Source: an uncultured beta proteobacterium
GTDB lineage: Bacteria; Pseudomonadota; Gammaproteobacteria; Burkholderiales; Burkholderiaceae_C
NCBI GenBank assembly: GCA_903876715.1
Contig: CAIRBF010000080.1
Coordinates: 1-32,180 of the forward strand
Reading direction: 5' to 3'
DNA: 32,180 nt
The notes below the pieces were generated by a model that saw only the letters and a program-made list of their open reading frames with translations, made no database searches and was not told where the DNA came from. Each line of letters opens with the position of its first letter. Position 1 is the first letter of the stretch. Positions 11,447 to 25,838 of this stretch are shown here, one piece after another. Position numbers and translations under genes: made by a program.

Positions 11447-13252
11447 ATGAAGCCCGCACTCATCGCGCTGTGGTCGGCTTGGGGGCTGCTGGCAGGCGCC
11501 GCCGCCGTCGCGGCCGCCGCCGCACCGTCCGCTGGTGCGGCTTCGGCCGCCGCCAGGCCCAACTTCGTCGTGCTGGTCGCTGACGATTGGGGCTTCACCG
11601 ACGTCGGCGCATTCGGTGGGGAAATTTCCACGCCCCACCTCGACGACCTGGCCCGGCGCGGCGTGCGCTTCGCCAACTTCCACGTCGCTGCGTCCTGCTC
11701 GCCCACGCGCGCCATGCTGCTCACCGGCGTGGACACCCACCGCAACGGCCACGGCAACCTGCGCGAGACCATGCCGGGCGCGCACCTGGGCCAGCCGGGC
11801 TACCAAGCCACCCTGACGCCCAACGTCGTGACCGTGGCCACGCTGCTGCAGGCGGGCGGCTACCGCACGTCCGTGACCGGCAAGTGGAACGTGGGCAACG
11901 AGCCCCGCAACCTGCCCGACCAGCGCGGCTTCGACCAGTCCTTCGTCATGGGCGACACGGGTTCGGACAACTGGGAGCCCGAGAAGCGCTACCTGCCCCA
12001 CGCGGCACGGGTGAACTGGTTCGAGAACGGCAAGGCGGCGGTGCTGCCCAAGCAGTTCTACTCCTCGACGTTCTTCGTCGACAAGACCATCGAGCACCTG
12101 CGCGCGGGCGCCTCCAGCGGCAAGCCCTTCTTCGCCTACGTGGGCTTCCAGGCCAACCACGTGCCGGTGCAGGCACCGCAAGCCTTCATCGACAAGTACA
12201 AGGGCCGCTACGACGGTGGCTGGACGGCGCTGCGGGAAGCGCGTCGCGCCAAGGCCGGCGAACTCGGTCTGGTCCCGAAAGACACACCGATGGTGACGAT
12301 GGGCACCACGCTCGACTGGGCTGCCCTGAGCGCCCAGGAAAAACGATACCAGGCCCGCCTGATGGAGGTCTATGCGGCGATGGCCGAAGCCACGGACCAC
12401 GAGGTGGGCCGGCTCGTCGCGCACCTGAAATCCACGGGCGAGTTCGACAACACGGTGTTCATCTTCCTGTCCGACAACGGCCCCGAGGGCTCGGACTACA
12501 AGGCGGCGGCGCCGTGGCTGCTCTTCAACTACAGCCGCGACTTCGACCGCCTGGGTGGGCCGGGCGCCTACGTCGTTCCCGGGCCTTCCTGGTCCAGCGC
12601 CTCGGCGTCGCCCCTGAGCACGTTCAAGTTCTACGCGGGTGAGGGCGGGATCCGCTCGCCGCTGATCATCAGCGGCCGGGCCGTGACGGCAGCCAACCAG
12701 ATCCATGCCGGGCTGACCCATGTCACCGACATCATGCCCACCTTGCTCGATCTGGCGCAGGTGCCGCGTCCTGGCCGCACCTACCAAGGCCAGCCCATCG
12801 AGGCGCTGACCGGCCGCAGCCTGCTGCCCGTTCTGGCCGACCCGAGCGCCCGCGTGCGCGGCAGCGACGAACCGCTGGGCTACGAGCTGGCCGGCAACAA
12901 GGCCCTCTTCAAGGGCGACCTGAAGCTGGTGCTGAACAACCCGCCGGTGGGTGACGGGCAGTGGCGCCTGTATGACCTGCGCGCCGACCCGGGTGAAACC
13001 AAGGATCTGCGGGAGGTCTTGCCGGCGCAGTTCACCGCCATGCAGGCCGACTACGCCGCCTGGGCCCGCGCCCACGGCGTGCTGCCCATGCCCGAGGGCT
13101 ACAACCCCGTCGACCAGGTGATGATCAACACCTTCGTCAACTACTGGATCCCGGCGTACTGGCCGCATGGCGTGGCGGCGTCTGTGCTGCTCCTGGGGCT
13201 GCCGGCATGGCTGGTGGTGCGCGTCCGGCGGCGCCGCGGCTTGGCAGGATGA
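11447..13252 (+). CDS. type I sulfatase (arylsulfatase family), exported and membrane-tethered
   Basis: 601 residues of the alkaline-phosphatase-like sulfatase family, hydrolysing sulfate esters. An Ala-rich signal peptide (1-26) precedes NFVVLVADDWGFTDVG, whose Asp46-Asp47 pair binds the metal. CSPTR at 84-88 is the C-x-P-x-R motif whose Cys84 must become formylglycine. The motif GKWNVGNEPR carries further active-site Lys and His-position residues, and FIFLSDNGPEG supplies the second metal-site Asp/Asn. A C-terminal helix (SVLLLGLPAWLVVRV) followed by RRRRG is a stop-transfer tail, so the catalytic domain should face the periplasm on the inner membrane. Its CxPxR type needs an FGE, which is encoded at 20370. 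The stop overlaps the next start. Confidence 0.93.
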   Translation: MKPALIALWSAWGLLAGAAAVAAAAAPSAGAASAAARPNFVVLVADDWGFTDVGAFGGEISTPHLDDLARRGVRFANFHVAASCSPTRAMLLTGVDTHRNGHGNLRETMPGAHLGQPGYQATLTPNVVTVATLLQAGGYRTSVTGKWNVGNEPRNLPDQRGFDQSFVMGDTGSDNWEPEKRYLPHAARVNWFENGKAAVLPKQFYSSTFFVDKTIEHLRAGASSGKPFFAYVGFQANHVPVQAPQAFIDKYKGRYDGGWTALREARRAKAGELGLVPKDTPMVTMGTTLDWAALSAQEKRYQARLMEVYAAMAEATDHEVGRLVAHLKSTGEFDNTVFIFLSDNGPEGSDYKAAAPWLLFNYSRDFDRLGGPGAYVVPGPSWSSASASPLSTFKFYAGEGGIRSPLIISGRAVTAANQIHAGLTHVTDIMPTLLDLAQVPRPGRTYQGQPIEALTGRSLLPVLADPSARVRGSDEPLGYELAGNKALFKGDLKLVLNNPPVGDGQWRLYDLRADPGETKDLREVLPAQFTAMQADYAAWARAHGVLPMPEGYNPVDQVMINTFVNYWIPAYWPHGVAASVLLLGLPAWLVVRVRRRRGLAG

Positions 13253-14499
13253 GCGTCGGCTACTTCGACAGCCCCTGGCCGGCCGAGGACGCCGGGGCGC
13301 AGCGGCTGCAACAACCCCGCACTGGCAGTGGCCTGAACCTGCGCGCGGGCGAGTCCCTGCGCGCCACCACGCGGCGCACCTGCATGTCCACGATGACCGT
13401 GCTGGGCGCGCCGGGCGAGGTCTACCTGCTGACGCACTCCGCCTTGCGCAGCAAGATCGGCCTGCCGACCACGGCCTGCGTCGAGCAGATCGATCCGGTG
13501 ACGCTGAAGCCGCTGCATCGCTCGCCCCGCCTGCGCGGCGGGCCGATGTGGCCCGGTGGCATGGCCATCCACCGCAACGGCGATCTGTATGTCGTCTACG
13601 GCCGCCACGCCCACCGCCTGAACCGCCGCTGCGGGCCGCTGGCGTCGCTGGCCTTGCCGGTGAATCAACCCTACAACTCATTTGTCGTGCTCGACAACGG
13701 GCTGATCGTCACCAAGAACCTGTCGGACCGCACGCCGGCGCGCCTGACCGTCATCGATCCCGAGTCGCTCACGCCGGCCTGTGCCTACACCGAGGCCCCC
13801 GAGCCGTCCATCGCGCGGCTGAGCGCCAGTGGCAACACGGTCTATGTGGTGGGTGTGCGGTCCCTCTTCCGCTACCACTGGAGCGAGGCCAGTCACGCCT
13901 TGGTGCGGGACCCCGACTGGCGTTTCGACTACATCGGCCGCAGCCCGCAGACCCACGGCTGGGACGCGGTGCTGGACGGCCGGCACGCCTGGTTCATGGA
14001 CAACGGAGCGCACCGCTACCGCCACCGCATGCTCGGCGCCGGTGTCAGCCGCACGGCCAACCGCCTGATCCGGGTGTCACTGAGCGACGCTGCCGACCAT
14101 CAGGCCCTGGACATCTGCGGCCTGCCCGGCGGCAGCATCACCAACCCGCCGCTGGTGGACGTGCAGCGTGGCATCGTCGTGGGCTACGACTCGGCCAATG
14201 CCGTGCTGCAGGCCTGGCAGTTCAGCGCCCTCCAGAGCACGCTGACACCGCTGTGGCGAAAAGCGCCCTTCGGCTGCGCCAGCCACATGATCCTGTATGG
14301 CGACAGTGGCGAACTGGTGGTCAACGACTATCGCCGCCACGGCGAAGAGGTGGTGGTGCTGGACATCGGCACCGGCGCCGAGCGGGCTCGCGTGCGCACC
14401 GGGGGCCTGATGCAGGGGGTGGTCTTCCCCAGCCCGGGCTGGGGGCGTGACCTCTATTGGTCTTCGATGGGCCGCCTGGCCCGGGTGTACGTCGCATGA
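13249..14499 (+). CDS. beta-propeller-like protein of unknown function
   Basis: 416 residues from ATG 13249, which overlaps the sulfatase stop (ATGA). The sequence shows repeated strand-loop units such as GGMAIHRNGDLYVVYGRH, NSFVVLDNGLIVTKN, LSASGNTVYVVGVRSLFRY and VVLDIGTGAERARVRTGG. These resemble the blades of an SMP-30/gluconolactonase or YVTN-type propeller. I see no signal peptide and no clear metal-site set, so cytoplasmic location and lactonase activity are only guesses. A lactonase would fit a pathway with a Baeyer-Villiger enzyme. A 14-residue longer in-frame start inside the sulfatase gene was rejected. Confidence 0.75.
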   Translation: MSVGYFDSPWPAEDAGAQRLQQPRTGSGLNLRAGESLRATTRRTCMSTMTVLGAPGEVYLLTHSALRSKIGLPTTACVEQIDPVTLKPLHRSPRLRGGPMWPGGMAIHRNGDLYVVYGRHAHRLNRRCGPLASLALPVNQPYNSFVVLDNGLIVTKNLSDRTPARLTVIDPESLTPACAYTEAPEPSIARLSASGNTVYVVGVRSLFRYHWSEASHALVRDPDWRFDYIGRSPQTHGWDAVLDGRHAWFMDNGAHRYRHRMLGAGVSRTANRLIRVSLSDAADHQALDICGLPGGSITNPPLVDVQRGIVVGYDSANAVLQAWQFSALQSTLTPLWRKAPFGCASHMILYGDSGELVVNDYRRHGEEVVVLDIGTGAERARVRTGGLMQGVVFPSPGWGRDLYWSSMGRLARVYVA

Positions 14500-15287
14500 C
14501 GAAAACCATCCTCATCACGGGAGCCGGCAGCGGCATCGGGCAGGACACGGCCTGGGCGCTGGCCGCGCGCGGCCACCGCGTCATCGCCACCACCTTCGAC
14601 GAGGCGCAGGCGGCACGCCTGCGCGCCGAAGCCGTTTCCCGCGGCGTGGCCTTGCAGGTCTTCAAGCTCGATATCACGTCGGCGGCCGACCGCGCGCAGA
14701 TCCTCGCGCTGGAACTGGACGTGCTGATCAACAACGCCGGCGTCGGCGAGTCGGGCTCGCTGGCCGAAGTGGACGTGGACCGGATCCGGCAGGTCTTCGA
14801 GGTCAACCTGTTCGCCACGCTGGAGCTCACGCAGCTCGCCTTGCGCGGGATGATCGCGCGGCAGCGCGGCACGGTGCTGTTCGTCAGCTCCATCGCCGGC
14901 CGCGTGCCCATGCCCTTCCTGATGCCTTATTCGATGAGCAAGTTCGCCCTCTCGGCAGCGGGTGCCGGCCTGCGCGCGGAGCTGGACGAGCTGCGCTGCA
15001 ATGTGCATGTGGCGCTGATCGAACCCGGCGCCATCCACACCGGCTTCAACCAGGCGATGACCGACCGCAAGTACGCGTGGATGGGGCCGCAGTCCTACTT
15101 TGCCGGCCAGGTCGAACGGATGAAGGCCGCGGAGGCGCGCACCTTCGCCCTCCTGGAAGCGAAGTCCACGCGCTCGATCGTCGCGCAGATCGTCAAGGCG
15201 GCGGAAGCCCGCAAGCCCCGGTTGCGCTACGTCGCGCCCTGGATCCAGGGTCTTGGCGTTCGCCTGGCCCGCGTCTTCGGAGTTTGA
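14496..15287 (+). CDS. short-chain dehydrogenase/reductase
   Basis: 263 residues, a classical SDR oxidising an alcohol or reducing a ketone with NAD(P). The cofactor loop TGAGSGIG is at 8-15, NNAG at 79-82, the structural Asn at 104, catalytic Ser at 131/132, and the Tyr145-x-x-x-Lys149 pair in YSMSK. The residue after the second strand region (TTFDEAQ) carries Asp35, which suggests NAD rather than NADP. ATG overlaps the preceding stop, and the stop overlaps the next start, so translation is coupled. In context it could convert the alcohol released by the sulfatase into a ketone for the Baeyer-Villiger enzyme at 21513. Confidence 0.94.
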   Translation: MTKTILITGAGSGIGQDTAWALAARGHRVIATTFDEAQAARLRAEAVSRGVALQVFKLDITSAADRAQILALELDVLINNAGVGESGSLAEVDVDRIRQVFEVNLFATLELTQLALRGMIARQRGTVLFVSSIAGRVPMPFLMPYSMSKFALSAAGAGLRAELDELRCNVHVALIEPGAIHTGFNQAMTDRKYAWMGPQSYFAGQVERMKAAEARTFALLEAKSTRSIVAQIVKAAEARKPRLRYVAPWIQGLGVRLARVFGV

Positions 15288-16983: not shown

Positions 16984-18654
16984 TCAGTTGCTGTAGTAGA
17001 CGTATTCCTCGCCGGCTTTCGTGGGCTGCTTCATCGTGTGGTCGATCGCGATCGCCCCGGCGCCCATCGATGGCCACAGCGGCTTGCGCTGAGCCTTGTT
17101 CCATTCCAGCAACTGGGCCTTGAGCGCGGCCACACGCTCCGGCTCCCTGGCAGCCAGATTGGTCTTTTCGGTGGGGTCGGTGGCCAGGTTGAACAGCCAG
17201 TCCTTCTTCGGCTGCTGTGACACCTGCAACTTCCAATCGCCCGCCCGCATGGTGAGGTAGTTGTCGGTTCGCCAGAAAAGCACATCGTGCGGTCTGCCAG
17301 GCGCGTCGCCCTTGATGAAGGGCAGCAGGTTGACGCCGTCGATGATGCGGTCGCCCGGCGCCTTCTGGCCGGCGGCAGCCGCCGCAGTGGCAAAGATGTC
17401 GAAATGGCTGACCGGTGCCATGACGCTGGCCCCGGCCGGGATGGTGCCCGACCAGCGCATGAAGAAGGGGACGCGGATGCCCCCCTCGAAGAAGGTGGCC
17501 TTCCAGCCGCGGTAGGGTGAGTTGATCCCGTCCAGCCCGATGTAGTGTGCGCCGCCGTTGTCGCTGGTGAAGATGACCAGGGTGTCGTCGTCGAGGCCCT
17601 GGTCTTTCAGCGCCTGCAGCACGCGGCCGATGTTGCGGTCGAGCGACCGGATCATCGCGGCATAGACGCGCATCGTGTGGTCGGGGATGAAGCTGAGCGC
17701 GTCGTAGTCTTCGCGCGTGGCCTGCAGGGGCGTGTGCGGCGCGTTGTAGGCCAGGTACATGAAGAAGGGCCGATGCTTGTTGGCCGCCACCACCTTCACC
17801 GCTTCGTCGGTGAGGTAGTCGGTCATGTACTTGGGCGGCTGGAAGGGTTCGCCGTCCTTGAAGCGCACGACCCAGGGCTCCGCCGCCCACAGGAACTTGT
17901 CGATGGGGTCGAAGTCCTGCAAAGCGTTGACGACGCCTGGGTGCTTGGTGGGCAGGTACATCGACGCACCGTGCAGATGCGACAGCGACTCGGTGAAGCC
18001 GTGGTTGTAGGCCCTGAACTGCGGGCTGTCGCCCAGGTGCCATTTACCCAGGTGCACCGTGTGATAGGCCGCGCCCTGCAACAGCTTGGCCAGCGTGATC
18101 TCGCTGGTGGGCAGTCCCATGTCTTCGTAGGGGATGAGGTCGGCCTCGCGTTCGGCGTGGTAGAGCGGCTTGAACAATTGATCGGCCGGGGCCATGCCGG
18201 TGATGGCCTGCATGAACTGCTTGGGCGTAGGCGTGAACTCGAAGCCGAAGCGCGTGGCATAGCGCCCGGTCATCATGGCTGCGCGCGCCGGTGCGCAGGT
18301 GGCGTTGCCCGAGTAGCCGTTGCGGAAATCCACGCCCTGCCTGGCAATGCTGTCGATGTTCGGCGTCGGTACCCCGCCGCCGGCGATACCGCCGCCGTAG
18401 TGGGTGATGTCGTTGAAGCCCAGGTCGTCGGCGACGATCAGCACGACATTGGGCGGACGGCGTTCTGCGCCGGCTGCCGTTGGTGGGGCCGGGGGGCCGG
18501 CCTGCCAGGCCACCTCGCGGGTCGGCGCGTAGTCCTGGCGCAGGACGAACTTCACGGTCAACAGCAACAGCCCCGCTCGTCCGCCCACGGCGTAGAACGC
18601 CACCGCACCCAGCACCAGCAAAGCTGCAAGCGCCCAGGCCACCCGTTTGATCAT
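16984..18654 (-). CDS. type I sulfatase with N-terminal membrane anchor
   Basis: 556 residues from ATG 18654, chosen because GGAG lies eight bases upstream; a 35-residue longer frame has no support. MIKRVAWALAALLVLGAVAF is a signal anchor with a positive N-side, so the enzyme should face the periplasm. The metal motif is NVVLIVADDLGF (69-80). The formylglycine motif CAPAR (120-124) is a C-x-P-x-R variant with Ala before Arg. Further sulfatase signatures are GKWHLGDSPQFRAYNHGF and the metal-site IFTSDNGGAHY. The sequence GWKATFFEGGIRVPFFMRW is typical of the arylsulfatase A/B branch. It follows the metallo-beta-lactamase gene by 43 bases in the same direction. Substrate unknown. Confidence 0.93.
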   Translation of the reverse strand: MIKRVAWALAALLVLGAVAFYAVGGRAGLLLLTVKFVLRQDYAPTREVAWQAGPPAPPTAAGAERRPPNVVLIVADDLGFNDITHYGGGIAGGGVPTPNIDSIARQGVDFRNGYSGNATCAPARAAMMTGRYATRFGFEFTPTPKQFMQAITGMAPADQLFKPLYHAEREADLIPYEDMGLPTSEITLAKLLQGAAYHTVHLGKWHLGDSPQFRAYNHGFTESLSHLHGASMYLPTKHPGVVNALQDFDPIDKFLWAAEPWVVRFKDGEPFQPPKYMTDYLTDEAVKVVAANKHRPFFMYLAYNAPHTPLQATREDYDALSFIPDHTMRVYAAMIRSLDRNIGRVLQALKDQGLDDDTLVIFTSDNGGAHYIGLDGINSPYRGWKATFFEGGIRVPFFMRWSGTIPAGASVMAPVSHFDIFATAAAAAGQKAPGDRIIDGVNLLPFIKGDAPGRPHDVLFWRTDNYLTMRAGDWKLQVSQQPKKDWLFNLATDPTEKTNLAAREPERVAALKAQLLEWNKAQRKPLWPSMGAGAIAIDHTMKQPTKAGEEYVYYSN

Positions 18655-18697
18655 GTACTTGTCTCCAGCCTGTTCGGTATCGGCGAGCGCTGGGGGC

Positions 18698-19783
18698 TCA
18701 GGGCCGCTTGCCCATGCCGACGGAGGTGCTGCCCGCTGCCAAGGTGATCCAGTCGCCATCCACGCCGATGCGCAGCGGGCCGGTGTAGATCGTGGCAGCG
18801 CGCTGCAGGAAGGCCGGGTCCAGCCCCGACAAGGGCAGCGGCGGCACGATGTGGTTGAACACCAGCGCCTTCACGCCGGCGGCCCGTGCGATCTCGGCGG
18901 CTTCCTCGGGCGTGGTGTGGTAATTCACCACGTCGTGCATGACCTTGGCCAGGCTTGGTCGGCCGGCCTGGCTGAAGCCCTGACCCAGGATAGCCAGCAA
19001 CTGCGGCGACAGCGCCTCGTGCAGCAGCAGGTCCACGCCCTGCGACTCGCGCGCCACCGCCGCGCTCTTGCGCGTGTCGCCGCTGATCACCAGGCTGCGG
19101 TCCTTGTAGCGGATGCGGTAGCCCACGGCCGGGTGGACCGGGCCGTGGTCCACCGCGAAGGCCACGATCTCCAGATCGGGCTCGGCCAGCAGGACCTTGC
19201 GCCCCGTGGCGGCGGGCAATTCAAAGGTCCGCGGTGTGCCGCCGAAGCCTTCGGAGGGCGCCACGGCCGCCCCATGGTGAGCCGTTCGGTACCCTTTGTC
19301 GAGCGTGTAGGCGTCGTTGAAACCCTCCAGCACCTTCTCCAGGCCCGCCGGGCCGTGAACCGGCAGGGGCTCCTTGGACGTGCGTTGGATCCAGCGTTGC
19401 AACATCAGTTCACCCAGGCCGTCAATGTGGTCGGAGTGGTAGTGGGTGAGGAACAAGGCCTCGATCTGTCCTGCATTGAGCCGCATGCGGGCGATGTTGC
19501 GGCCGGCGCCCGAGCCTGCGTCGAAGATGAACAGGCGGCGTCCCGCCACCACGGCGGTGCAAGGCCCGCTGCGCTGGTCGTCGGGGAAAGGCGATCCGGC
19601 GCCGCACAAGCCCACGTGCAGGCCGTCGGGCAGTGCGGCGAGCGGGTCGGCCGCCGCCGTCATCGCGTTCACTTGCCGCGTCATCAGGGCCACGGTGATC
19701 GGAGCGCGCTGCCACCAGGCCGCTGCGGCTGCCACTGCCAACAGGACCCCGATCCACAAGACTGTTTTCGCTCGACGCTGCAT
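18698..19783 (-). CDS. membrane-anchored metallo-beta-lactamase-fold hydrolase (RNase Z / AtsA-like)
   Basis: 361 residues from ATG 19783, preceded by GAGGA; the longer frame from 19858 lacks this. MQRRAKTVLWIGVLLAVAAA is an N-terminal signal anchor. The zinc motif is HYHSDHIDG (114-122). Later ligands are His and Asp in FAVDHGPVHPAVGYRI and VISGDTRKSAA, and FNHIVPPLP near the C-terminus. The order resembles RNase Z-like enzymes and also the MBL-fold arylsulfatase AtsA of Pseudoalteromonas. An anchored, outward-facing protein is unlikely to process tRNA. Next to a sulfatase it may itself be a sulfatase or other esterase. First gene of the two-gene minus operon, divergent from the FGE. Confidence 0.85.
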   Translation of the reverse strand: MQRRAKTVLWIGVLLAVAAAAAWWQRAPITVALMTRQVNAMTAAADPLAALPDGLHVGLCGAGSPFPDDQRSGPCTAVVAGRRLFIFDAGSGAGRNIARMRLNAGQIEALFLTHYHSDHIDGLGELMLQRWIQRTSKEPLPVHGPAGLEKVLEGFNDAYTLDKGYRTAHHGAAVAPSEGFGGTPRTFELPAATGRKVLLAEPDLEIVAFAVDHGPVHPAVGYRIRYKDRSLVISGDTRKSAAVARESQGVDLLLHEALSPQLLAILGQGFSQAGRPSLAKVMHDVVNYHTTPEEAAEIARAAGVKALVFNHIVPPLPLSGLDPAFLQRAATIYTGPLRIGVDGDWITLAAGSTSVGMGKRP

Positions 19784-20369
19784 CTGCTTGTCCTCTGTCG
19801 ACCGGCACTGACGGACCCAGTTCCGATCTTGCGACCACCCATATCGTCGGGACCGCAAGCGGCTTGCGCCTGCATCGCCCAGACCAGTATGGCATTGTCA
19901 GTGTCATCAGATTCCACGCGTCTCGCGCCACTCTCGGTTTGGTGCTGAATCGGGCGCCGCCAAGCGTCCACTCTGAGGAAGTTGTCCGAGCGCACGGAAG
20001 CGACCTTGCTGGCCCGATGGCGCGAAAATCACCACGGGCGACGAGAGGCTGACCGAGATCGTCTGTCTCGACGACCGGCGCGAGAGCCCCATCGGCAAGA
20101 TCCTGCGACGCGGGCTGGGCGGTACCACCTGGGCCGCTGTACCCTGCCTGCACGAACCACCCCATGACCGACCCTGTCGTCCGAGGCTTGTTGATCGATT
20201 TGGAATTGCCCTTCCGGGCCGAGCAGCGCGTCCGGGAACCCGTCGGCGCCAGCGCCGACCTGGACTCGCACCCAGGCCGGCATGACCGCGAACGGCCGCA
20301 GCGGTCTGTGCTGAACCACCGCGTGCAGTTCACGGTGGTCGGTTCACCGGCCTGCAGGGCCGGGACGAG
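19784..20369. other. 586-base region between the divergent MBL and FGE genes
   Basis: No convincing gene. Short open frames on both strands have no recognisable domain. One plus-strand stretch around 20040-20150 reads ERLTEIVCLDDRRESPIGKI then RRGLGGTTWA, which looks protein-like, but it has no start and breaks into stops, so it could be a decayed coding remnant. The region must hold promoters for both flanking genes. A GTGTCAT half-site near 19900 recalls the palindrome at 25852 but is not symmetric. Confidence 0.4.
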
Positions 20370-21404
20370 ATGAAGAGCCGCCGCCGACGCTGGACCCTGG
20401 CCGGGGCGGCAGCCCTGATCCTCCTGGCTGCGGGGGTTGCCGCATGGTGGGCGATGGGCGAGCGCAGCGCCCGGCAAGCCCGAGCCGAGCGCGTGGCATG
20501 CGCCTTGCCGCCCGAGCCGGCAGCCCGCCCGCACCCCGGCATGGTGTGGGTGCCGGCGGGCAGCTTCGACATCGGCGACACCGTCTATCCGGAGGAACTG
20601 CCTCGGCGCCGCACCCGTGTCGAAGGTTTCTGGATGGACCGCACGGAGGTCACCAACGACGAATTCGCCGCCTTCGTGAAGGCCACACGCTATGTGACCG
20701 TGGCCGAGCGCCCCGTCGACACCGTGAAGAACCCGGGCCTGCCGGCGGCCCTGCAGCAACCGGGTGCCGTCGTGTTCTTCATGCCGGGCGCCGTGAAGGG
20801 CCGCAGCGACATCACCCAGTGGTGGCGCTACACGCCGGGCGCGAACTGGCGCCACCCGGGGGGCCCTGGTACACACATCGAAGGCCGCGGCGCCTTCCCC
20901 GTGGCGGCCGTGACGCTGGAGGATGCGCAGGCCTACGCACGCTGGAAGGGCCGGGCCCTGCCCAGCGAAGCCCAATGGGAATGGGCGGCCCGCGCTGCCC
21001 GGCCCGAGCTGCCGCCGGCGCACGAGCAACCTAAGGAAGCAAACACCTGGCAGGGCTTGTTTCCGGTGCTGAATTCCGGCGAGGACGGGTTTGTCGGGCT
21101 CGCCCCGGTCGGTTGTTATGCGCCGAACCCGCTGGGGCTGCACGACATGATCGGCAACGTCTGGGAACTCACTGCCGATGCGTGGACACCGCATCACCGC
21201 GACGCCGATGCACCGCCACCTGATCAGATTCCGGTGGGAATGCGTGCGGCCGGGGCCGCGCAGCAGGTCATCAAGGGGGGCTCCTTCCTGTGCGCGCCAA
21301 ACTACTGCATGCGCTACCGCGCCGGCGCGCGCCAGCCGCAGGACCGGGATCTGGCGACCAGCCACCTGGGCTTCCGGACCATCTTGACCGCGCCCGGCCC
21401 ATGA
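20370..21404 (+). CDS. formylglycine-generating enzyme, membrane-anchored
   Basis: 344 residues of the SUMF1/FGE family, which oxidises the cysteine of C-x-P-x-R in type I sulfatases to formylglycine using oxygen and copper. Domain start: MVWVPAGSFDIGD (58-70), then FWMDRTEVTNDEFAAFV. The central LPSEAQWEWAARAA and GNVWELTADAW are typical. Both active-site cysteines are present as Cys308 and Cys313 in GGSFLCAPNYCMRYR, with the same CX4C spacing as human FGE (CHRSYC); many SUMF1-fold paralogues lack them. The N-terminus KSRRRRWTLAGAAALILLAA is a positively charged signal anchor, which would place the catalytic domain in the periplasm. It lies next to two sulfatase genes, its likely substrates. 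Convergent with the esterase-BVMO gene. Confidence 0.93.
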   Translation: MKSRRRRWTLAGAAALILLAAGVAAWWAMGERSARQARAERVACALPPEPAARPHPGMVWVPAGSFDIGDTVYPEELPRRRTRVEGFWMDRTEVTNDEFAAFVKATRYVTVAERPVDTVKNPGLPAALQQPGAVVFFMPGAVKGRSDITQWWRYTPGANWRHPGGPGTHIEGRGAFPVAAVTLEDAQAYARWKGRALPSEAQWEWAARAARPELPPAHEQPKEANTWQGLFPVLNSGEDGFVGLAPVGCYAPNPLGLHDMIGNVWELTADAWTPHHRDADAPPPDQIPVGMRAAGAAQQVIKGGSFLCAPNYCMRYRAGARQPQDRDLATSHLGFRTILTAPGP

Positions 21405-21512
21405 AGCCGGCCAGTTCCCGGTAGCGAAAGGGCGGATGCACGGGTTCGGTACGAGGGCACCGTCCAGGCGTGCGAGGAGCCGGCGGCAAGAACCCCCATC
21501 GGGTCGATCACC

Positions 21513-23870
21513 TCAGGCGCGACCACCCCGCGAAAAGTCCATCACGCCATCGTCGACCTTGCCCAGGCGCAGGGCCAACAGGTCCCATACATAGTTCTGG
21601 TGCAGCCGCCAGGGCGCGCGGTCGCCTTGCTTGGGCAGCAGGGCGGCGGCCCGTTGTACATATCCCGACGTGAAGTCGAGAAAGGGTTCGGGCGTGACAT
21701 CCGCGCCCCGGGTGGGCTTGAACACGGTCTGGCCGCGGCGGTCCATGTGGCGCAGCAGTCGGCAGAAATAGCGCGCTGTCAAGTCGGCCTTCAGCGTCCA
21801 ACTGGCATTGGTGTAGCCGAAGGTGTTGGCCAGGTTGGGCAGGCCGCTGAACATCATGCCCTTGTAGACCAGCAGATCGGCCGGCGTCACCGGTACACCC
21901 CCCAGGCTCAGCCTCACATCGCCCAGCACCTTGAGCTGCAAGCCGGTGGCGGAGACGATCACGTCGGCCTTCAGCAGTTCACCGGACTTCAGCCGGATGC
22001 CTTGCGACGTGAAGGTTTCGACCTGATCGGTGACGACGGAGGCCCGCCCCTCGCGCAGCGCCCTGAACAGGTCGCCATCGGGCACCAGGCACAGGCGCTG
22101 GTCCCAGGGCTTGTAGTGCGGCTTGAAGTGCTTGTCGACATCGAACTGCGGGCCCAGGGCCTCGCGCACCATGCGCACCAGCCGCCTCTTGGCAGCGCCG
22201 GGGTACCTGCGCATGACGCGGTAGAAATACAGGCCGACCAGGATGTTCTTGGTGCGGATCAATCGGTAGGCCAGCGCCGCGGGCAGCCAGCGCTTGAGGA
22301 CTTCGGCCAGGGCATCGGTGCTGGGCCGCGCGACGACGTAGGAGGGTGAGCGCTGCAGCATCGTCACGTGGGCGGCGGTGCGCGCCATCTCGGGCACCAG
22401 GGTGACGGCCGTGGCACCGCTGCCGATCACCACCACCTGCTTGCCCGCGTAGTCCAGCCCTTCGGGCCAGAACTGCGGGTGCACCACCGTGCCCTCGAAT
22501 TGCGTTTCCCCCGGAAACGCGGGCCGGTGGCCCTGCGCGTAGTTGTAATAGCCGCTGCAGAACAGCAGGAAACGCGGCTTCATCTGCAGGCGTTGGCGCT
22601 GCGGCCCGCGTTCGACCTCCACGGTCCAGCGCCCTTCGGCGGCCGACCAGTCGGCGCTGACCAGACGGTGCTGAGTGCGGACGTGGGCCCCGATGCCGTG
22701 TTCGATGGCGGTTTCGCGGATGTAGTCGCGGATGGACGGGCCGTCGGCGATGGCCTTGGCGGCGCGCCAGGGCTTGAACGCGTAGCCCAGCGTGTACATG
22801 TCGGAGTCGGAGCGGATGCCGGGGTAGCGGAACAGGTCCCAGGTGCCGCCGATCGCATCGCGTGCTTCCAGCAGGGTGAACGATTTGCCAGGGCATTCGC
22901 GCTGCAGGTGCACCGCGGCGCCGATGCCCGACAGGCCCGCGCCCACGATCAGCACGTCCACTTCCTCGGGCGCGCTGCTGCGCTGGGCCGAACGCAGGAA
23001 GGTGGCTGCCGCGCGCACCGAGCGGCGCGACTCCGGCAATTGGCGCACCAACTGCCATACGTGCGCCACGCCAGGGAAGACCTGCAATTCGACCGTCACC
23101 CCGGCTTCGCGCGCCTTCTGCGCCAGCCGGATCGAATCGTCGCGCAGCACTTCCGATTCGCCCACGTGCAGCAGCAGTGGCGGCAGGCCCGCCATGTCCC
23201 CGTAGAGGGGCGAAGCCAACGGCTGCGTCGGGTCGGCGCCGGCCAGATAGGCCGCGGCCAGGTGGGGCAGTTGCGCGGGATCGAACATCGCGTCGTGCCC
23301 GGCGTTGAGCTTGATCGACGGGCTGCCACCGGTCATGTCCAGGGCGGGTGAGAACAAGGCGGCTGCCGCCGGCAGCGGCTCGCCGTTATCGCGCAGGGTG
23401 AGCAGCAGGCCCAGGGTCAGATTGCCGCCGGCGCTGTCGCCGGCGACCACGATGCGGGCGTGCGGCGCATCGGCGCGCAGGGCGCGGTAGACGGCCAGCG
23501 CATCGTGCGGCGCGGCTGGGAACGGGTGTTCGGGCGCCAGGCGGTAGTCGGGTGCGAACACGCGCAGGCCTTGCAGCGCGAAGGCTGCGGTCAGCGGCCG
23601 GTGGGTGCGCGCTGAACAGGCGACGAATCCGCCGCCGTGCAGGTACAGCAGCGTCGTGGAGGCGCCTGTGCCTGGCGCGTCGGCCTCGACCCATTCGCCG
23701 GGCACGCCGCCGACGCAGGCCGGTGTATAGCGCACGCCCTGGGCCGCGGCCAGTGGCTTGGCGAAGGCCGCGCGCACCGAAGCGATGTCGCGCATGTCGG
23801 CCAAGGCCGGCTTGACACGCCGGCGCACCACGGCCGCCGCCATGCGGGCCTGCCAGCTTGCTTTGTTCAT
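21513..23870 (-). CDS. fused esterase (HSL family) and Baeyer-Villiger monooxygenase
   Basis: 785 residues with two complete enzymes in one frame. Residues about 45-290 form a hormone-sensitive-lipase-type alpha/beta hydrolase: oxyanion HGGGF (78-82), nucleophile Ser146 in GDSAGG, His270 in GVAHVWQL, and an acid in ESEVLRDD where Glu240 takes the place usually held by Asp. After a linker (about 292-303), residues 304-785 form a flavin-dependent Baeyer-Villiger monooxygenase. Its motifs are FAD GAGLSG (310-315), GGTWD (341-345), the BVMO fingerprint F-x-G-x-x-x-H-x-x-x-W-P (458-469) and NADPH GSGATA (483-488). The monooxygenase would convert a ketone to an ester or lactone and the esterase would hydrolyse it. 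No signal peptide. Last gene of a minus operon. Confidence 0.93.
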   Translation of the reverse strand: MNKASWQARMAAAVVRRRVKPALADMRDIASVRAAFAKPLAAAQGVRYTPACVGGVPGEWVEADAPGTGASTTLLYLHGGGFVACSARTHRPLTAAFALQGLRVFAPDYRLAPEHPFPAAPHDALAVYRALRADAPHARIVVAGDSAGGNLTLGLLLTLRDNGEPLPAAAALFSPALDMTGGSPSIKLNAGHDAMFDPAQLPHLAAAYLAGADPTQPLASPLYGDMAGLPPLLLHVGESEVLRDDSIRLAQKAREAGVTVELQVFPGVAHVWQLVRQLPESRRSVRAAATFLRSAQRSSAPEEVDVLIVGAGLSGIGAAVHLQRECPGKSFTLLEARDAIGGTWDLFRYPGIRSDSDMYTLGYAFKPWRAAKAIADGPSIRDYIRETAIEHGIGAHVRTQHRLVSADWSAAEGRWTVEVERGPQRQRLQMKPRFLLFCSGYYNYAQGHRPAFPGETQFEGTVVHPQFWPEGLDYAGKQVVVIGSGATAVTLVPEMARTAAHVTMLQRSPSYVVARPSTDALAEVLKRWLPAALAYRLIRTKNILVGLYFYRVMRRYPGAAKRRLVRMVREALGPQFDVDKHFKPHYKPWDQRLCLVPDGDLFRALREGRASVVTDQVETFTSQGIRLKSGELLKADVIVSATGLQLKVLGDVRLSLGGVPVTPADLLVYKGMMFSGLPNLANTFGYTNASWTLKADLTARYFCRLLRHMDRRGQTVFKPTRGADVTPEPFLDFTSGYVQRAAALLPKQGDRAPWRLHQNYVWDLLALRLGKVDDGVMDFSRGGRA

Positions 23871-23963
23871 GAGTGACTGGCCTTCATGGGGATGGGGCCG
23901 CGTGGATGCCCTGACCCACCAGCACCCGGGGCTGCGCCACAGGAAAGGGTGGTGTCTGCGACC

Positions 23964-24992
23964 TCAGAGCCCGGTGAACAAGGACTCGCAGCCCGTCCCG
24001 GCCAGGATCCGGTCGACCCGGGTACGTGCCTGAGCATCCAATGCCTGGTGGTCACGCCGCAGCCAGGCCAGGCACTTGCCCTGGTAGGGGAAAGCCTGCT
24101 GCGCCCAGACCTGGCCATCGACCGTGGCATGGACCTGCGTCGCGCCATCCGCCAGCGCCTGCGCGTTGGCTGACAGCACCGGGGCGTAGAGCCGGCCCAC
24201 TTCGCACAACAGGGCGTGCAGGCTGGCGGGCAGGTCGCCGCCATCGAACCAACCGTCTTCGCCGACTTCCAGCCCGGACAGGTCTTCCGTCAGCGCCACC
24301 CAGGCGCACACGCGCGGCGCGTGGGCCACGGCCAGTGCCATAGGCGTGGGGTCGAACTGGACCAACTGGGTCAGTTGCCCGTGGAAGGCAAAGTCGCTGG
24401 ACCCCGGCCGGGCGCCCATCAAGAAGTGGTGATGGCGAAGGTGTTCTTCCAACACCCCGAGCACGCGCAGGTAGCCCGCTTCGATGACGGGCGCGGTGGT
24501 GGGGTTGGAGCCGACATAGCGCAGACGCGGGATCTGCCGTTGCGAGACCGCGGCGGCAAGCCTGGCCAGGCTTTCATCGTCATGCGGTGCGCCGAGATAG
24601 CACGCCAGGATGCGCGCCGCCTTGTCGATGTCGGCCGCGTAGTGCCAGCGGTAATGGAACATCGCCTTCGTCAGCCACTCGTCGGCGAAGTCCTCGAGCA
24701 GGGCGTCGATGAAGGCCAGTGCCGGGTCTGCCGGGATCACGCCACGGCCTGCGTGCTCGGCTTCGAAGCGGCGGATCAGCGGGGTCGAGTCCGTCACCGC
24801 CTGCAGGGCGCCGTCGGGCCCCGGCAGGTAGAACGTCGGCAGCAGGTGGGGCCGGGCCATGGGCAGACCGGGCACGCCGGAACTGCTGGCCACCAGCTGG
24901 TAGGCGATACGCCGGTAGCGCAGCAGCGCGACCATCTTGCGCGTGTAGGGCGAGCCTGGCACGCCACTGAGCATGAGTGGAGTGGTGGTCAT
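23964..24992 (-). CDS. glutathione S-transferase family protein
   Basis: 342 residues, longer than the usual 200-230. An N-terminal thioredoxin-like domain (LSGVPGSPYTRKMVALLRYR) carries the GSPYTRK motif where the catalytic Ser or Tyr of bacterial GSTs sits, and STPLIRRFE holds the glutathione-binding Ser at about residue 69. A helical C-terminal domain follows with GARPGSSDFAFHGQL, the conserved GST N-capping region. The last 80 residues are an extension seen in some long GST-like proteins. It may conjugate, reduce or isomerise a pathway intermediate, but no substrate can be read from the sequence. It lies between the membrane protein and the esterase-BVMO gene. Confidence 0.88.
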   Translation of the reverse strand: MTTTPLMLSGVPGSPYTRKMVALLRYRRIAYQLVASSSGVPGLPMARPHLLPTFYLPGPDGALQAVTDSTPLIRRFEAEHAGRGVIPADPALAFIDALLEDFADEWLTKAMFHYRWHYAADIDKAARILACYLGAPHDDESLARLAAAVSQRQIPRLRYVGSNPTTAPVIEAGYLRVLGVLEEHLRHHHFLMGARPGSSDFAFHGQLTQLVQFDPTPMALAVAHAPRVCAWVALTEDLSGLEVGEDGWFDGGDLPASLHALLCEVGRLYAPVLSANAQALADGATQVHATVDGQVWAQQAFPYQGKCLAWLRRDHQALDAQARTRVDRILAGTGCESLFTGL

Positions 24993-25068
24993 GTCTGGTT
25001 CACGCCGGGGTGACGGTCACCGCATCGACGCCTGCGACGCAAGGGCGTTTCCATGCGGTCGCCGCGTG

Positions 25069-25713
25069 CTATCGCGCCAGCAGCACGACCAGGCTCGCCA
25101 GGTGCGCCAGTGCTGCCGCGAGAGCCAGCAACAACGCCACCCAAACCCTGGGTCCGAGGGCCAGGCTGACGACCACCTGGGCCGGAAAGCTGAAGGTCAC
25201 CGCCGTGCCGGCGGTCTTGAACACGTGGACGTCACGCAGCGAGGGGTCGAGCACCAGCGCGATCATGTCGCGTCGGCTGCGGTAGCGCATCGCGCCCACC
25301 ACGTGCCAGCCGGGGTCGGGTGGGGTGTTCCATGCGTCCACATAGCCCCCCACCTTGCGCATCGCCAGCAGAGGGTGCCCGCCGTGGCGCAGCAGCATCT
25401 TGATGAACAGTCGCGCGTAGGACTGGAACAAGGCCAGACCAGGCGTGGGAGCGCCGGTTGTCGGATGGGGCACCTCGCCGGGATGCACGCGCACCAGGTT
25501 GCTCATGACGAATTCCTTGCCGTCGTCGGCTTCCAGGAAGGCGCGCACCACGGCCGGGTCGGTGTACTGATGGACCCTCATCTGCGCCACCTTCGCCATG
25601 AAGGCGTCGATCTCGGGCTGGGTCAGCGGCCCGCGCCGGCTGTCGTACCAGAGCCTGAAGGCGCCGTACAGGGCCAGCGCCACGAGCCACGACCACCACG
25701 CGCCGATCATCAT
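25069..25713 (-). CDS. membrane protein with a possible DUF1330-like domain
   Basis: 214 residues. A single N-terminal helix (WWSWLVALALYGAFRLWY) is followed by a soluble region (about 30-170) and a C-terminal hydrophobic pair (about 170-213, ending LASLVVLLAR). The soluble part contains NLVRVH, YARLFIKMLLRHGGHPLLAM, VVGAMRYRSRRDMIALVLDP and HVFKTAGTA. This order resembles DUF1330/ferredoxin-like dimeric barrels found beside oxidative pathways, but the match is by eye only. The start ATG-ATG overlaps the stop of the short upstream ORF. It leads the operon with the GST and the esterase-BVMO. No function can be assigned. Confidence 0.75.
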   Translation of the reverse strand: MMIGAWWSWLVALALYGAFRLWYDSRRGPLTQPEIDAFMAKVAQMRVHQYTDPAVVRAFLEADDGKEFVMSNLVRVHPGEVPHPTTGAPTPGLALFQSYARLFIKMLLRHGGHPLLAMRKVGGYVDAWNTPPDPGWHVVGAMRYRSRRDMIALVLDPSLRDVHVFKTAGTAVTFSFPAQVVVSLALGPRVWVALLLALAAALAHLASLVVLLAR

Positions 25714-25838
25714 GCAGCCTCCGCAGGGGCGCCGGTGTCAGCCCACAGACCTTGCATGGCAGGCCGCACGCGCGCGCCGCGACCGGGCCGCGCGCGCGGG
25801 CACGACGGGCGTACAGAAATCAGGAGCCACGGAGTCAT
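25710..25838 (-). CDS. possible 42-residue leader peptide
   Basis: ATG 25838 is preceded by GGAG with five bases between, right after a strong promoter. The 42-residue frame starts MTPWLLISVRPSCPRARPGR and ends with a TGA that overlaps the next gene's ATG (ATGA). The composition is Arg/Pro/Ala-rich, as any frame in GC-rich DNA may be, and there is no recognisable domain. The start signals and the coupling make translation plausible, either as a leader that couples translation of the next gene or as a small protein. No homologue is known to me. Confidence 0.4.
   Translation of the reverse strand: MTPWLLISVRPSCPRARPGRGARVRPAMQGLWADTGAPAEAA

Follow-up and report, generated by a model that had tools for sequence, protein, structure and literature searches.

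A conserved gene fusion of an HSL-type esterase with a type I Baeyer-Villiger monooxygenase, probably functional partners on one polypeptide

The window analyzed here, a 32,180-nucleotide stretch of DNA from an uncultured beta proteobacterium of the Burkholderiaceae_C (contig CAIRBF010000080.1), contained a single minus-strand gene encoding both an esterase and a Baeyer-Villiger monooxygenase (BVMO) (Table 1). The initial annotation had placed the two enzymes in one uninterrupted 785-residue frame, giving no strand, and this was borne out, as the frame was found to be open from its ATG to its stop. The motifs that had been named for the two halves were likewise all located: HGGG, GDSAG and His270 in the esterase half, and GAGLSG, FEGTVVHPQFWP and GSGATA in the BVMO half. 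PEP carboxylase and heme-synthesis genes occupied one end of the window, and the fusion was surrounded by two sulfatase genes, a formylglycine-generating-enzyme-like gene, a metallo-beta-lactamase-fold gene, a GST-like gene and two AMP-binding (acyl-CoA-synthetase-type) genes; none of these neighbors fixed a substrate for the fusion. The GST-like gene (23964-24992, minus strand; 342 aa) showed a weak GST match and precedes the fusion on the same strand at a distance of 93 bp.

Table 1. Coordinates of the fused gene, its parts and related fused genes (window positions unless a locus is named).
Feature	Location	Strand	Basis
Whole fused gene, 785 aa	21513..23870	-	ATG at 23870, stop at 21513-21515; relatives with the same fusion
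Esterase half, residues 1-296, alpha/beta hydrolase of HSL type	22983..23870	-	Pfam Abhydrolase_3, 2.9e-55; Est8 (6y9k), Z 43.5
HGGG oxyanion-hole motif, residues 78-81	23628..23639	-	Motif script; first three residues in 13/13 fusions
GDSAG nucleophile elbow, residues 144-148 (Ser146)	23427..23441	-	Motif script; Ser146 in 13/13 fusions
Glu240, proposed catalytic acid	23151..23153	-	Aligned Glu in 9vmr; 13/13 fusions
His270, proposed catalytic histidine	23061..23063	-	13/13 fusions
Linker core, residues 297-301	22968..22982	-	Model secondary structure and 13-fusion alignment
Type I BVMO half, residues 302-785	21516..22967	-	Pfam families; half folded alone, Z ~32 to solved BVMOs
First Rossmann motif GAGLSG, residues 310-315	22926..22943	-	Motif script
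BVMO1 fingerprint GGTWDLFRYPGIRSD, residues 341-355	22806..22850	-	Motif script; pattern per PMC9044951
BVMO2 fingerprint FxGx3Hx3WP, FEGTVVHPQFWP, residues 458-469	22464..22499	-	Strict in 12/13 fusions; F to Y in L012
Second Rossmann motif GSGATA, residues 483-488	22407..22424	-	Sequence and 13-fusion alignment
Arg592, proposed counterpart of the BVMO active-site arginine	22095..22097	-	13/13 fusions; invariant in 37 BVMO-half sequences
Class A fusions from genome-contig search	L008 (same gene as L088, L222), L009 (Limnohabitans), L010, L011, L012, L013		
Class A fusions from genome samples	G021, G009, G246, G836, G835, G810		
Class B fusions	L215:2750-5251, L216:4820-7639, L217:9248-12226		Three genomes, two of them in the window's own genus
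Deinococcus radiodurans plasmid MP1 fusion DR_RS15615	L107:5716-8217		

Pfam placed the Abhydrolase_3 family at residues 74-273 of the window protein, and the motif set of this HSL-type family, HGG together with Ser146, Glu240 and His270, was present in each of the 13 fusions of the same type described below. Glu240 is the apparent catalytic acid and aligns with a Glu of the solved esterase 9vmr; the same position is Gln in entry 9vmu. A full-length AlphaFold2 model, calculated from the window protein in a 62-sequence alignment, had a mean pLDDT of 91.8 and a pTM of 0.88, with values under 50 at residues 357-360, beside the BVMO1 loop, and at residues 687-689. Upon superposition of this model, the best match was Est8 (6y9k; rmsd 1.8 over 291 aligned residues). 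Est8, EstD11 and E40 shared the modeled fold across the whole esterase half (best-row Z-scores of 43.5, 42.9 and 41.8; 39-44% identity), and the Est8 and EstD11 alignments also shared HGGG and GDSAG with the window esterase; unlike the window fusion, all three are single-domain enzymes. The top-scoring NCBIfam model was NF058651, a GESAG motif subfamily, and its 214 bits fell under the curated whole-protein cut-off of 430, so the protein was not assigned to that subfamily.

The two halves were joined by a short linker. In the secondary structure of the model, the final esterase helix ended at residue 294 and the first BVMO strand began at residue 302, and the linker varied in length by at most 6 residues across the 13 aligned fusions. 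FMO-like and FAD/NAD-binding families were matched between residues 302 and 524. Within the BVMO half, the motif GGTWDLFRYPG presumably recalls the EthA/MymA group of BVMOs. The hallmark order of type I BVMOs is given, in an excerpt of PMC9044951, as a Rossmann motif GxGx2[GA], the BVMO1 fingerprint [GA]GxWx4[FY]P[GM]x3D, the BVMO2 fingerprint FxGx3Hx3W[PD] and a further Rossmann motif, and the window protein presented the same order, starting at residues 310, 341, 458 and 483. We infer that Arg592 corresponds to the active-site arginine of BVMOs.

In the full-length model, the top BVMO found by Foldseek was PAMO, with a loose superposition (rmsd 6.4; 4.8-9.6 among the BVMO rows listed), and VIA-align returned only esterase rows; the BVMO half was therefore folded separately. 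Modeled alone from 37 sequences (pLDDT 90.1, pTM 0.88), it showed high similarity to the steroid monooxygenase 4aox, the CHMO 5m0z and the PAMO 2ylx, with Z-scores of 32.4, 32.1 and 32.0, respectively, rmsd values of 3.1-3.3 over 452-455 aligned residues and a sequence identity of approximately 22%. These enzymes have the fold and the fingerprints in common with the window BVMO half but lack an esterase half, and the sequence match to PAMO was strong only across the first 230 residues.

The initial annotation had suggested looking for the same domain order in other genomes and for its taxonomic spread. With the window included, at least 13 distinct fused genes of this esterase-BVMO type, here termed class A fusions, were identified, of which at least 12 lie outside the window; one of these (L010) ended at approximately residue 710 at a contig end. 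Their identity to the window protein ranged from 60 to 86% when aligned, L013 standing at 59% in the genome-contig search. At least 6 fusions were among the 80 loci listed by the genome-contig search, a count that does not represent a frequency. Within the window's own genus, the full-length fused gene occurred patchily, in 7 of 81 genomes; in the genome G010 (L093) of this genus, the contig ended inside the BVMO half, and L093 fell within the fused BVMO clade. In the order and phylum samples, where scoring was limited to the two best candidates per genome, the fusion was detected in 2 of 399 genomes (the window's and G246) and in 1 of 398 (the window's own only), respectively.

Alignment of the class A fusions revealed that His78, Ser146, Glu240, His270, Asp355, His464, Trp468 and Arg592 were kept in all 13, while Phe458 was kept in 12 and was Tyr in L012. 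Crude Nei-Gojobori dN/dS values for seven pairs were 0.05-0.35 in the esterase half and 0.09-0.44 in the BVMO half, the window-L009 pair being near saturation at synonymous sites. The fusion in the window is genuine, and the two-domain enzyme is conserved. Domain matches of less than 200 query residues and BVMO matches under 100 bits were excluded from the counts; for the trees, identical domain sequences were merged, and the BVMO tree was built without matches of less than 350 query residues. The class A fusions formed one clade in the tree of 57 esterase sequences (support 100/96), and the corresponding clade on the BVMO half was weak (SH-aLRT 66). The trees point to a single origin of the class A fusion, firmly on the esterase half and weakly on the BVMO half. 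A standalone BVMO of Schlegelella koreensis (L051:3935-5452) was placed inside the fused clade of the weakly supported BVMO tree, which may reflect fission, loss of the esterase half or lack of resolution.

The esterase half alone was also searched in the 398 phylum genomes, and 29 standalone loci were examined (30 minus the window). A same-strand BVMO gene adjoined the esterase in at least 6 of these 29 nearest loci and in at least 3 of the 4 most similar ones (52-60% identity), both counts being lower bounds because the loci span approximately 1.5 kb per side and some end at contig ends. In 23 of the 29 loci, no BVMO was found within approximately 1.5 kb of the esterase. The sister group of the class A esterase halves consisted of four esterases (support 98/75): three of the six with a BVMO beside them, encoded in genomes that belong to a different class of the phylum, and a fourth carried by a plasmid of Methylobacterium aquaticum; support dropped to 91/49 in a second esterase tree calculated without L107, L002 and L003. 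All four sit immediately upstream of a BVMO of a second class, class B, and the same esterase lineage is thereby linked to two BVMO classes. By sequence, the class B BVMOs appear nearer to PAMO than those of class A: PAMO (1w4x) was matched at E 5.6e-76 by the class B half of L216 versus 1.4e-30 by the window BVMO half. Because its closest free-standing relatives adjoin BVMO genes, the window esterase looks like a BVMO partner. The earlier proposal that it is the likely partner of the BVMO gains support from this linkage and from the completeness and conservation of both halves, and the two halves of the window protein are probably functional partners. The 74 listed loci L014-L087 showed no related esterase in the vicinity of the BVMO, which suggests that the close class A BVMOs there work without a nearby esterase partner.

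A third gene recurred beside these enzymes. A short-chain dehydrogenase (SDR) gene lay directly upstream of the fusion in half of the 12 class A loci with upstream sequence (L222, that is, L008, and L009, L010, L011, L012 and L013), and upstream of the esterase-BVMO pair in three of the four sister-group loci (L206, L208 and L109, not L207); Pfam adh_short was confirmed on 4 of those 9 SDRs. No SDR adjoined the fusion in the window, L218, L219, L220, L221 or L223, and in L224, outside the 12 loci, the contig begins just upstream of the fusion. Among the esterases that lack a BVMO neighbor, the one of highest similarity (G619, L230) still has the SDR gene, a related SDR was found beside 13 of the 75 BVMOs in the listed loci L014-L087, and another immediately precedes a BVMO of class A on a plasmid of Mycobacteroides chelonae. 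Since the SDR precedes both the fusions and the sister pairs, a module in the order SDR, esterase and BVMO recurs with two BVMO classes, separate or fused. For BVMOs whose role is unknown, such a module helps to identify the partner enzymes. A close SDR was not found in the window's own genome, where the best match showed 31% identity. The SDR gene at 14457-15287 of the window was rejected as a partner; it is a general SDR that scored 81 bits against the query SDRs, as compared with at least 343 bits for the SDRs beside fusions.

Fusions of an esterase with a class B BVMO were also found (L215 from G004, L216 from G300 and L217 from G006), and in all three the BVMO2 motif ends in WD. Their esterases formed a separate clade (100/99), adjoining one esterase with a BVMO neighbor (98/97), and this fusion looks independent of the class A fusion. 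On plasmid MP1 of Deinococcus radiodurans, DR_RS15615 (WP_010884002.1) is one annotated 2.5 kb gene in which an esterase is followed by a class A BVMO, the same order as in the window. Its esterase scored 196 bits with the LipP1 model and 83 with the GESAG model, whereas the window protein showed the reverse (GESAG 214, LipP1 135), and its BVMO half lay outside the class A fusion clade, the support of which is weak (66). Since its esterase comes from another HSL branch, this fusion looks independent. On a plasmid of Streptomyces sp. NBC_01717, an open frame (L108:3743-6292) encodes a BVMO first and then an Abhydrolase_1/6 hydrolase; the gene table gives the hydrolase part alone, without the BVMO part, and the frame is a candidate fusion. 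The plasmid results cover 4 of the best 30 among 72 records, of 1038, with one place covering at least 80% of the protein, and further fusions may occur among the plasmid records. The esterase-then-BVMO order, to which the initial annotation had drawn attention, carries no clear mechanistic weight, given that the genes of the SDR-esterase-BVMO module follow this order too and that the Streptomyces frame reverses it. The differing esterase branches and BVMO classes suggest that esterase-BVMO fusion likely arose at least three times, and fusions that apparently arose separately suggest in turn that the two steps gain from linkage.

We propose, with a probability of roughly 0.75, that the window protein is a bifunctional catabolic enzyme that converts a ketone to an ester and then to an acid and an alcohol. 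The C-terminal half, as a FAD- and probably NADPH-dependent type I BVMO, would insert oxygen beside the ketone carbonyl to give an ester or lactone, and the N-terminal HSL-type esterase, with a proposed Ser146-Glu240-His270 triad, would hydrolyze this product. In relatives with an SDR gene upstream, the SDR would oxidize a secondary alcohol to the ketone, and the whole route would run from secondary alcohol through ketone and ester to acid and alcohol. The direction of this pathway, its cofactor and its substrate class are as we infer them. The fusion would fix at least a 1:1 ratio and the co-localization of the two activities, and direct channeling between the halves is possible. Several results count against this proposal, namely the patchy occurrence within the genus, the absence of such an SDR beside the window fusion and of a close one elsewhere in its genome, the drop in sister-group support to 91/49, and the standalone esterases and class A BVMOs that lack the respective other partner nearby.

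The proposal was weighed against other readings of the same locus. The two halves might be independent detoxification enzymes, each with its own substrates, whose union in one polypeptide serves only expression or stability. Both the esterase and the BVMO family are broad in substrate, and besides the GST-like gene upstream of the window fusion, one GST family has members near three other fusions (L219, L220 and L224; by clustering, with Pfam on one of the three); the nearest free relatives of the esterase are nevertheless BVMO neighbors, and fusions of the same two enzyme kinds recur, which makes this reading unlikely. It is less likely still that the esterase acts before the BVMO, so that an ester yields a hydroxy or keto compound, or serves as a transacylase that passes the acyl group on, rather than hydrolyzing the BVMO product. 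The title of the Est8 entry (6y9k), the top structural match, refers to transacylase activity, but the upstream SDR fits ketone formation, and the known acmA/acmB pair, as described in an excerpt of PMC6215540, runs from ketone to ester to hydrolysis.

That one half is non-catalytic and has a scaffold role seems very improbable: the low model confidence at residues 357-360 and the F458Y change in L012 point weakly in this direction, yet the catalytic motifs persist throughout the 13 genes, and both halves have dN/dS values under 1. The window genome is a fragmented draft of 505 contigs, and several fusion copies come from metagenome-assembled genomes, so an assembly or sequencing error that joined two genes was considered as well; the same join in at least 12 other distinct fused genes, one of them from a Limnohabitans strain (L009), ruled it out for practical purposes. 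With the bifunctional enzyme as the preferred reading, we further suggest, as a tentative view held at somewhat less than even odds, that the fusion is recurrent and convergent. In this view, the partner esterase, with its SDR, changed from one BVMO class to another, and fusions of an esterase with a BVMO arose at least three times because selection favored passing the ester on directly, or clearing at once an ester that is inhibitory or reactive. The fusions, if this is true, would amount to naturally occurring "ketone cleavage" enzymes, taking a ketone to an acid and an alcohol on one polypeptide.

The LipR protein of Mycobacterium tuberculosis is an HSL-type esterase. It is encoded, as a so-called thioesterase, in the mymA operon together with the monooxygenase mymA and the dehydrogenase sadH, an operon tied to the cell envelope and mycolic acids (excerpt of PMC10740695); the three genes are of the same kinds as in the SDR-esterase-BVMO module, and the likeness is one of gene kind, but they are separate, unlike the window fusion. 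Additionally, acmA (acetone monooxygenase) and acmB (esterase) of Gordonia sp. TY-5 form a bicistronic operon for the conversion of ketone to ester to acid and alcohol (excerpt of PMC6215540). The pair carries out the same two reactions in sequence as proposed for the window fusion, with which it is likened by function, but from two separate genes. The pairing of BVMO and esterase genes is already known and the chemistry is not new; the novelty lies in the two enzymes being fused, in this having likely happened repeatedly, and in the switch of BVMO class next to one esterase lineage. Among the listed matches of the open-access literature search, judged by title and the opening of the abstract, none described a naturally occurring fusion of a BVMO with an esterase. 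The Deinococcus gene was, we assume, once annotated as "arylesterase/monoxygenase", an annotation that the open-access literature search did not turn up. Because the search covered open-access literature only and the Deinococcus gene stands in public annotation, we do not present the fusion as previously undescribed. Artificial fusions are in use in designed BVMO cascades. A natural, conserved fusion of a BVMO with its likely ester hydrolase, apparently arisen more than once, provides scaffolds ready for use and allows one to test directly whether a covalent link between the two steps speeds flux or removes an ester intermediate.

In the region 20300-25800 around the fused gene, no sigma-70-like site was found, and terminator-like sites numbered 3, as compared with 2.2 expected. 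The two sulfatases of the window contain the CxPxR motif (as CSPTR and CAPAR) and cluster with the formylglycine-generating-enzyme-like gene, the three genes lying at 11447-13252 (plus strand), 16984-18759 (minus strand) and 20370-21404 (plus strand).
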